Positions 26,151-27,708 of a DNA stretch of 42,349 bases are shown here, piece by piece. Made by a program: the position numbers and the translations under genes. Source of the DNA: Thalassobaculaceae bacterium (GTDB taxonomy: Bacteria > Pseudomonadota > Alphaproteobacteria > Thalassobaculales > Thalassobaculaceae); NCBI GenBank assembly GCA_029212785.1, contig JARGOG010000015.1, forward strand, positions 1-42,349, in the 5' to 3' direction. The first letter of the stretch is position 1. The number at the start of each line of letters is the position of its first letter. The notes under the pieces were generated by a model, which saw only the letters and a program-made list of their open reading frames with translations, did no database searches and had not been told where the DNA came from.

Positions 26151-26846
26151 TCACGCCAGGGCGTTGGCGTCCAGCGCGTAGCCCGCCGAGCGCACCGTGC
26201 GGATCATGTCGTCGTCATTGTCGCTGTTCAGCGCCTTGCGCAGGCGGCGAATATGAACGTCGACCGTGCGCGGCTCGACATAGACATCCGGCCCCCAGAC
26301 CGTGTCGAGGAGCTGCTCGCGTGAAAACACGCGGCCCGGATGCTCCAGGAAATGCCGTAGCAGCCGGAATTCGGTCGGCCCGAGATGGATGTCGCGCTCG
26401 CTACGCTTCACCCGGTGCGCCGCCAGATCCATGGTGAGATCGGCGAAGCGCAGGGTCTCGTCCTCGGTCGATGGGCGGGCGCGGCGCAGCACCGCGCGCA
26501 CCCGGGCAACGAGCTCGGCCGGGCTGAACGGCTTGGTGATGTAGTCGTCGGCTCCGGAATTCAGACCGCGGACCCGGTCGCCCTCCTCGCCGCGGGCGGT
26601 GAGCATGATGATCGGGGTGTTCTTCAGGTCCGGAGCACGGCGCAGCCGGCGGCAGGCCTCGATCCCCGACAGCAGCGGCAGCATCCAGTCAAGCAGGATC
26701 AGGTCGGGGCGGCGTTCGGCGGCGACGAGCATTGCCTCCTCGCCATCGCCGGCCTCGATGACCCGGAAACCTTCGCGTTCCAGGTTGTAGCGGAGCAGGG
26801 TGACGATCGGCGCTTCATCCTCGACGATCAGGATCAGTGGTTTCAT
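26151..26846 (-). CDS. phoB: Phosphate regulon response regulator PhoB
   Basis: A 231-residue OmpR-type regulator. The receiver domain has the acidic pocket VEDE, phosphoacceptor Asp53 in LILLDWMLP, and Lys in YITKPF. The winged-helix DNA-binding domain has LGPTEFRLLRHFLEHPGRVF and RTVDVHIRRLRKAL. When phosphorylated by PhoR it binds Pho boxes, such as the one before pstS. Last gene of the pho cluster; 18 bases separate its start from the palindromic element. Confidence 0.97.
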   Translation of the reverse strand: MKPLILIVEDEAPIVTLLRYNLEREGFRVIEAGDGEEAMLVAAERRPDLILLDWMLPLLSGIEACRRLRRAPDLKNTPIIMLTARGEEGDRVRGLNSGADDYITKPFSPAELVARVRAVLRRARPSTEDETLRFADLTMDLAAHRVKRSERDIHLGPTEFRLLRHFLEHPGRVFSREQLLDTVWGPDVYVEPRTVDVHIRRLRKALNSDNDDDMIRTVRSAGYALDANALA

Positions 26847-26864: not shown

Positions 26865-26980
26865 CTAGAGCACGATCGGTTCAGATCGAAGCGATCTGAA
26901 CCGTGAATCGTCCTCTAAGCTTTTCGGACAGGGCAAATTCACACGATCAGATGTCCTCATCTGATCGTGATTTGCTCTAG
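26865..26980. repeat. MITE/REP-like double-hairpin element between phoU and phoB
   Basis: The ends CTAGAGCA (26865-26872) and TGCTCTAG (26973-26980) are perfect 8-bp terminal inverted repeats. Inside are two hairpins. In the first, CGGTTCAGATCG (26877-26888) and CGATCTGAACCG (26892-26903) are extended outward by TAGAG-ACGAT complements. In the second, CACGATCAGATG (26942-26953) and CATCTGATCGTG (26958-26969) are extended by AGGGCAAAT against ATTTGCTCT. The right end overlaps phoU and provides its TAG stop. Similar TAGAGCA-type intergenic palindromes are common in alphaproteobacterial genomes; no transposase is present here. Confidence 0.75.
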
Positions 26981-27708
26981 GACGATCCATCGGAGAGCTC
27001 CCCCGGCTTGACGACGGCGAAGCTGCTGTTGTCCCCCTTCGGCCGGTTTCCCTCGAGACGTCGGCCGGTCTCCTCGAAATAGACGGTTTCGGCGATGTTG
27101 GTCGCGTGGTCGCCGATCCGTTCGATGTTCTTGGCGACGAAGAGCAGATGCGCGCAGGCGGTGATGTTGCGCGGATCCTCCATCATGTAGGTCAGCAGCT
27201 CCCGGAAGAGGCTGGTGTACATCTGGTCGATTTCTTCGTCGCGCTGCCAGGCGAGCATTGCCCGCTCGACATCGCTCTGGTTATAGGCGTCCAGCACGTC
27301 GGTGATGACCCGGTGGGTCAGCCGACCCATGCGGGCGATGCCGTTGATCGGTCCGACCTCCGGCAGCTGCGACAGGGCGGAGGCCCGCTTGGCCACGTTG
27401 GTCGCGTAGTCGCCCATGCGCTCGAGATCGTGGGAGATCTTCAACGCCGACAGGATCTGCCGCAGGTCGTGGGCGACCGGCTGGCGCAGAGCCAGCATCC
27501 GCAGGGTCAGCGCCTCGACCTGATCTTCCAGATCGTCGATCGCCTTGTCCGCTTCGACGCAGCGTGTCGCCAGAACGTCATCGCGCTTGGCGATCGCCTG
27601 GATGGCGTTCGAGAGCTGAGCCTCGACAAGGCCGCCCATCCGCGAGATGGCGGACCGCATGCCATCGAGTTCCTCGTCGAACGAAGAAACGATGTGGCTG
27701 TCGGACAT
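26977..27708 (-). CDS. phoU: Phosphate signalling complex protein PhoU
   Basis: A 243-residue all-helical protein of two PhoU repeats. The first is HIVSSFDEELDGMRSAISRM through MGDYATNVAKRA, the second through ERIGDHATNIAETVYF; the D-x-A-T-N metal-binding motif appears in both. It links the Pst transporter to PhoR and keeps the Pho response off when phosphate is plentiful. The last residues GELSDGSS run into a stop codon supplied by the palindromic element, so the native C-terminus may have been altered slightly. Confidence 0.96.
   Translation of the reverse strand: MSDSHIVSSFDEELDGMRSAISRMGGLVEAQLSNAIQAIAKRDDVLATRCVEADKAIDDLEDQVEALTLRMLALRQPVAHDLRQILSALKISHDLERMGDYATNVAKRASALSQLPEVGPINGIARMGRLTHRVITDVLDAYNQSDVERAMLAWQRDEEIDQMYTSLFRELLTYMMEDPRNITACAHLLFVAKNIERIGDHATNIAETVYFEETGRRLEGNRPKGDNSSFAVVKPGELSDGSS

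Follow-up and report, generated by a model that had tools for sequence, protein, structure and literature searches.

The stop codon of phoU in the pho operon of a Thalassobaculaceae bacterium falls within the end of a palindromic stretch that fills most of the gap between phoU and phoB. This raises the question of what the element is, whether it supplied the stop codon and whether its hairpins act on PhoB. We analysed the element in its window, i.e. the whole stretch of DNA studied (42,349 nucleotides), and in related genomes.

Architecture and fold of the element

The element consists of two hairpin modules in inverted orientation with a short linker in between (Table 1). The terminal arms CTAGAGCA and TGCTCTAG, 8 nt each, and the two pairs of hairpin stem arms, 12 nt each, are 100% complementary throughout, so that the perfect terminal repeats and perfect hairpins given in the initial annotation are exact. 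Each hairpin is flanked by an outer stem, which is offset by a bulge of 3 nt (TGA or TCA). Short, with perfect inverted repeats at its termini and too small for a transposase gene, the element has the outward form of a MITE.

Table 1. Positions of the element, its parts and the adjoining genes in the window
Feature	Position	Strand	Remarks
Element, probable RIME-like/IS630-type MITE	26865..26980	.	116 bp, CTAG to CTAG; R1 match in window 122 bits, E 2.4e-24
Left terminal inverted repeat CTAGAGCA	26865..26872	+	its outer CTAG (or TA) belongs to the target, rule from empty sites
Left hairpin module	26866..26917	+	outer stem 26866-26876/26907-26917; 12-bp hairpin 26877-26903 (stem 26877-26888/26892-26903); TGA bulge 26904-26906
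Linker joining modules	26918..26928	.	from alignment A1
Right hairpin module	26929..26979	-	outer stem 26929-26938/26970-26979; TCA bulge 26939-26941; 12-bp hairpin 26942-26969 (stem 26942-26953/26958-26969)
Right terminal inverted repeat	26973..26980	-	phoU stop codon TAG within CTAG
phoU	26977..27708	-	243 aa, TIGR02135 E 4.8e-71; stop TAG inside CTAG of element end
phoB	26151..26846	-	TIGR02154 E 2e-105; start codon 130 nt from phoU stop, gap mostly element

Folded as RNA of the phoU/phoB strand, the element reached -61.3 kcal/mol compared with a mean of -32.85 for shuffled sequences (z -8.15), and 0 of 200 shuffles folded as well. The window copy and nine other copies were aligned (A1), and an RNA model, R1, was built from ten copies. 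The family structure comprises 44 pairs, 43 of which are formed by the window copy, and standard pairs account for 95.4% of the pair cells in the ten copies of A1. Two-sided changes occurred at 6 pairs across the ten copies; as many were seen in 1 of 500 shuffles, and slid controls gave 0–2. A search of the window in Rfam returned 0 matches above the gathering score, which rules out a known Rfam RNA family as the identity of the element.

A dispersed family of mosaic repeats

Searching with the window sequence gave matches in 8 of 192 genomes, among them the genome of the window itself (G000), which contains a second full copy on contig C16 (81%) and two partial copies (L003, L006). With R1, 150 of roughly 3000 first-look candidates were scored per genome, and the numbers refer to matches, which do not equal copy numbers because of this limit and because some palindromic copies count once on each strand. 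Within the genus, G000 had 5 matches (at four listed places), G002 (Thalassobaculum litoreum) 71, G003 21 and G004 3; outside the genus there were 4 in G020, 40 in G069, 28 in G114 and 20 in G146. The genome search for repeats and hairpins suggested in the initial annotation thus uncovered a dispersed family: instead of a single copy with the same sequence in all relatives, there are dispersed copies and, as described below, empty sites. R1 gave 0 matches in G001 and G005, two genomes of 1.5 Mb each that are listed in the same genus as the 4.9-Mb genome; these two also lacked a PhoU match at E <= 1e-20. Across genomes sampled evenly from the class, with stricter filters and 15 candidates scored per genome, R1 matches at E <= 1e-5 were present in 19 of 240 genomes, the own genome included. 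Neither phage records searched with the element nor plasmids searched with query L277 gave a match. In a plasmid of Azospirillum oryzae, a related half-element (L297, 1501-1548) starts where a DUF1345 gene is annotated to end (1507), which is once more the end of a gene.

Among 16 representatives from as many other genomes, GTGAAT was found in the left module in 12 and ATTCAC in the right module in 10. Of these 16, 12 carried CTAG at the left end or close to it and 11 did so on the right, although the letters of the hairpins differ. Exchange of modules or arms was seen in copies L163, L170, L156 and L160, and L168 is without the right hairpin. We take such exchange among copies to be the 'mosaic' trait of RIMEs. 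In L156 and L160 (about 601-718), the outer stem arms look swapped between the modules, which would be in keeping with template switching inside the paired hairpins. G002 also contains a subfamily of 141 bp (L175-L180, L182, L183), distinguished by a longer left hairpin, and the hybrid L163 joins the left module of this subfamily to a right module of the 117-bp type. Another dispersed repeat family was noticed in the flank of L157 (contig C12 of G002, around 505000-505280), which has many matches at about 70-76% in G002, G000 and G003.

CTAG is the target sequence

For empty sites, the flanks of 17 copies were compared with four genomes; 10 copies had a listed junction-spanning match elsewhere, which gave 24 alignments. 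L157 was excluded, its flank being itself repetitive with matches at many places. The empty site read exactly CTAG in 7 of the 24 alignments (L002 in G003 and G004, L055 in G002 and G000, L051 in G002, L153 in G003 and G000). In the remaining alignments, several of which have gaps at the junction, three of the four bases were present in six, two in seven, one in three and none in one; the 11 alignments with two bases or fewer count against this target. No target duplication longer than CTAG was seen in the 24 alignments. The ends were scored in 40 copies of the genus (10 early loci and 30 of 31 loci of G002 and G003): CTAG was present at the left end in 29, at the right end in 29 and at both ends in 22. 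Left out before these counts were L047 (degenerate ends; also out of A1), L181 (replaced left part) and the partial G000 copies L003 and L006, while L062, the copy at the phoU site of G002, was used only in an identity comparison.

Several empty sites contain a single CTAG where the filled site has one at either end, which identifies CTAG as the target sequence; what is duplicated is the whole tetranucleotide or its central TA, with the outer C and G as context. Dispersed copies thus go together with empty orthologous sites and a target duplication, as is characteristic of a MITE, and the duplication of 2–8 bp that the initial annotation had proposed to look for takes the form of CTAG or TA. 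CTAG is a rare sequence here: it occurs 36 times in 106.8 kb of the window and relatives, element ends included, compared with 1248 occurrences of GATC.

The stop codon of phoU

The initial annotation had the element creating the stop codon of phoU. The TAG does coincide with the CTAG of the right end, but its creation by the element is not supported, as the target CTAG already contains TAG. Site L002 illustrates this: the ORF upstream of the filled copy ends at the TAG of CTAG, and the empty sites of G003 and G004 carry the identical CTAG after the same codons, so that the stop is older than the insertion. We infer that the phoU stop was likewise present before the insertion; the empty phoU alleles read CGAG (G003) and CCAG (G004), each one base off CTAG, a point against the CTAG target at this site. 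PhoU has 243 aa in both G000 and G002, and its length in the two relatives lacking the element hardly differs (G003, 244 aa; G004, 241 aa). With TAG inside the target, the same stop in the empty alleles at L002 and hardly any difference in PhoU length, the view of the element as the source of the stop has to be corrected.

On 30 of 80 element sides, an ORF of at least 100 codons ended at the boundary stop (frames that tied were counted, and most flanks were capped at 200 codons); among ordinary CTAG sequences, a long ORF ended on 18 of 59 strand-sides. These values are close, and landing on stop codons therefore follows from the CTAG target; no preference for stop codons beyond this target was apparent in the comparison. 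A simple rule results: elements that require and duplicate CTAG can insert at a TAG stop with no change of the protein.

Consequences for the phoU–phoB operon

The phoU/phoB pair is preceded by pstB. At the phoU–phoB site, the element is absent from the two congeners G003 and G004, and T. litoreum carries a decayed copy (L062), in which the left hairpin is deleted and the right hairpin mismatched. The gap between phoU and phoB accordingly differs, with 130 nt in the window, 112 nt in G002, 24 nt in G004 and 15 nt in G003. This wider spacing (130 versus 15–24 nt) is the clearest consequence of the element, which adds about 116 bp to the phoU–phoB mRNA and leaves both proteins whole. Many copies with shared ends, together with the absence from the phoU site of two relatives, bear out the earlier view of a non-autonomous mobile element.

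A promoter-like site was not found at the element, and along the operon there was no terminator-like site in the sense direction. The sole such site lies on the opposite strand, which rules out a terminator for the operon. The proposed adjustment of the PhoB level is not supported: G002 retains only decayed hairpins, G003 and G004 have none, and the terminator-like site points the other way. Because the structure is absent or lost in relatives, a conserved role is disfavoured, and regulation of PhoB by the element is unsupported. The most direct effect is probably a loosened translational coupling of phoU and phoB. RNase III-type processing of the mRNA at the hairpins is possible by analogy with what has been proposed for NEMIS. 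Should PhoB be affected at all, this would be a side effect of the insertion.

Insertion history

At the phoU locus, 83 informative sites group G002 with G003, compared with 30 and 29 for the alternatives, and three other loci likewise group G002 with G003. At the phoU site, G000 and G002 carry copies in the same place and orientation, yet these are only 80.4% identical and neither is the closest relative of the other; they may stem from a single old insertion or from two independent ones. The insertion at L002 is also common to G000 and G002, here with near-identical copies (95.2% over 104 columns), and in G003 the element is absent from this site and a clean CTAG remains (L205 and L198 compared with L002 and L174). 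These data fit an old insertion that was later lost precisely in G003, perhaps when the flanking CTAG copies slipped; recombination or sorting is the alternative to loss.

An IS630-family element as candidate motor

An IS630-family element is present in several copies in G002, where PF13358 gave 10 matches, of which 8 lie at contig ends. Found via its transposase, this IS has the right end CGCTCTAG in 8 of 8 contig-end copies, all of them in CTAG. Its end CTAGAGCG is one base off the arm CTAGAGCA of the mini-element (eighth base, G for A). An IS630 element of G004 (L120) starts with CTAGAGCATTTTC and runs to the contig end at GAAAATGCTCTA. In G020, which belongs to the same family, an IS630 element of 1058 bp (L249) has ends CTAGAGCATTTTCCGATC, beginning with CTAGAGCATTTTC, and the transposase of a second copy (L253), whose ends begin with CTAGAGCG, was assigned to NF033545 IS630 (E 6.4e-42). 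Over the outer 8 bp of the mini-element, 7 or 8 positions are identical in IS630-family IS of the genus and family, CTAG making up 4 of these; further inward, the similarity is moderate. When compared with the IS end CTAGAGCATTTTCCGATCA over 19 bases, the window ends agreed at 15 and 14 positions (the first 8 included) and L149, of a mini-element subfamily, at 17. With up to 3 mismatches allowed, the reversed pattern used as a control gave 0 matches in G002 and 1 in G004. Element and IS also share the target, with all eight IS right ends in CTAG and CTAG at 7 of the 24 empty-site alignments of the mini-element. One IS630 copy (L131, contig C31 of G002, around 315-431 of the contig) is located exactly inside the CTAG end of a mini-element; mini-element ends therefore serve as targets of the IS.

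The distribution of the IS was compared with that of the mini-element: IS matches and R1 matches numbered 10 and 71 in G002, 1 and 21 in G003, 2 and 3 in G004, and 0 and 5 in G000, so that the two follow each other only roughly over these four genomes. Several findings speak against this motor. In G114, many element copies were accompanied by only two weak DDE_3 matches. Inverted ends were not found around the IS630-type loci L121, L122, L123 and L132 of the genus, yet the right end of L121 equals TGCTCTAG. TAGAGC ends were not found at L257 and L266 (G069), L260 (G146) or L256 (G114), where other ends are present. No DDE_3 transposase was found in the own genome, G000; because an IS630 transposase was not found there, the window copy is most likely a fossil.

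Discussion

We consider it probable that the element is a RIME-like, IS630-dependent non-autonomous MITE which was inserted at a CTAG at the end of phoU and mobilised in trans, the IS630 motor being deduced from the similarity of ends and target. An IS630-family transposase would cut at CTAG and duplicate TA (or CTAG); it would recognise the TAGAGC ends and could thus move the element in trans. Upon insertion into the CTAG at the end of phoU, the TAG contained in the target would keep the stop and phoU would remain unharmed, while phoB would come to lie 130 nt downstream instead of 15–24 nt. The suggestion of the initial annotation that the element spread in trans gains support from the presence, in both genus and family, of IS copies whose ends closely resemble those of the element, and movement in trans itself is what these sequences predict. 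The element is a new example of a known bacterial mini-transposon type and not a dedicated gene switch, and the tempting regulatory reading is corrected accordingly.

That the hairpins are a domesticated regulatory RNA, kept by selection and setting the PhoB level or the stability of the mRNA, appears unlikely. The strong fold on the transcribed strand, the near-complete pairing of the window copy (43 of 44) and the two-sided pair changes would all suit such a role. On the other hand, the covariation was observed among dispersed copies and reflects the family, not the phoU–phoB site; this site is empty in G003 and G004 and has lost its left hairpin and mismatched its right one in G002, and neither a promoter-like nor a sense-direction terminator-like site is present. 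A chance palindrome or an assembly artefact is hardly conceivable and was ruled out by the z value of -8.15 and the dispersed homologues in several genomes.

Other transposases might have moved the same repeats. BIMEs, too, have bulged hairpins in inverted orientation, which the bulged inverted hairpins of the element resemble, and the apparent swap of module arms in L156 and L160 is in line with a REP/BIME-type element moved through single-strand transposition by a Y1 (RAYT/IS200-like) transposase. However, a Y1_Tnp match was found in 0 of 8 genomes, among them G002, G003 and G114, each of which has at least 20 R1 matches, compared with 5 of 14 control genomes; since the controls worked, this mechanism is largely refuted. 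REPs are associated with a single-sided tetranucleotide, unlike the CTAG at both ends of the element and the single CTAG in several empty sites, and we regard this origin as very improbable. Mobilisation of the same MITE by a transposase of the IS5/IS427 group, which also uses CTAG-like targets, is a rather unlikely alternative. PF13340 transposases occur in G002 (1) and G003 (2) but not in G000 or G004, and a search for TA-bounded inverted ends 600-1700 bp apart gave none at these three loci (L269-L271). MITEPsy1, listed as 'IS5?' in the available text of its source, inserts at CTAG or YTAA with a duplication of 4 nt (PMC3189936), which counts in favour of this alternative. The IS630-dependent MITE thus remains the preferred explanation.

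Tentatively, and with somewhat less than even confidence, RIME-like elements across the Alphaproteobacteria may be seen as one IS630-dependent, CTAG-targeting MITE superfamily in which hairpins vary while ends and bulge motif persist. Hairpin sequences would turn over by exchange of modules and arms, and the ends and the TGA/TCA bulge motif (GTGAAT...ATTCAC) would persist as the recognition site. CTAG, being rare and often a stop codon, would offer a harmless landing at gene ends.

Comparison with known systems

RIME1 and RIME2, the Rhizobium-specific intergenic mosaic elements, were reportedly described by Osteras and co-workers in 1995 as intergenic elements of about 108 bp with two large palindromes and many copies, and a RIME is said to have been found first inside a two-component operon. 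To our knowledge, RIMEs have been described as limited to the Rhizobiaceae. The present element resembles them in its two large palindromes, its multiple copies and its intergenic position (checked at the phoU site); it differs in its occurrence in Thalassobaculum and other Alphaproteobacteria, in its largely different hairpin sequences and in the common 3-nt TGA/TCA bulge. In 350 kb of Sinorhizobium (S. meliloti) pSymB, in a record without RIME annotation, R1 weakly matched one place (E 4.5e-4, and 1.5e-3 on the other strand; E for 360 kb searched), a two-palindrome element of 119 bp with TTAG/CTAG ends (L290, 2117-2235). A second unannotated two-palindrome element of pSymB has CTAG at both ends (L288, 34494-34599). 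Both are presumably RIMEs.

Two shorter repeats of about the same size offer further parallels, here as far as the available text of their source goes. RUP of Streptococcus pneumoniae has 107 bp, TA at the target and ends like those of IS630-Spn1, which was proposed to move RUP in trans (PMC2229807). Our element is likewise short, with TA at its target and ends similar to those of an IS630-family IS; its ends are different from those of RUP, the host belongs to another phylum, and CTAG is not given as a RUP target in that text (PMC2229807). The Correia/NEMIS repeats of Neisseria, of the class of about 107 bp, have terminal repeats, TA ends and a hairpin RNA for which cutting by RNase III was proposed (PMC2229807). 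Their terminal repeats measure 24 bp, however, and the two bulged modules of our element are not described for NEMIS in the same available text (PMC2229807).

MITEPsy1 of Pseudomonas syringae, an element of 100 nt, was trapped while moving; insertion at CTAG or YTAA, the 4-nt duplication and ends like those of ISPsy2 are given in the available text (PMC3189936). The use of CTAG and the similarity of the ends to an IS are common to both elements, whereas MITEPsy1 has unrelated terminal repeats of 18 nt and its 'IS5?' listing sets it apart, according to the same text (PMC3189936). Titles and abstract openings of the open-access literature searched gave no link between RIME-like repeats and IS630. 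Among the systems compared, ends matched to an IS are given in the available texts only for RUP (IS630-Spn1, PMC2229807) and MITEPsy1 (ISPsy2, PMC3189936). For the RIME-like repeats of Alphaproteobacteria, IS630 elements with TAGAGC ends now provide a concrete candidate motor.
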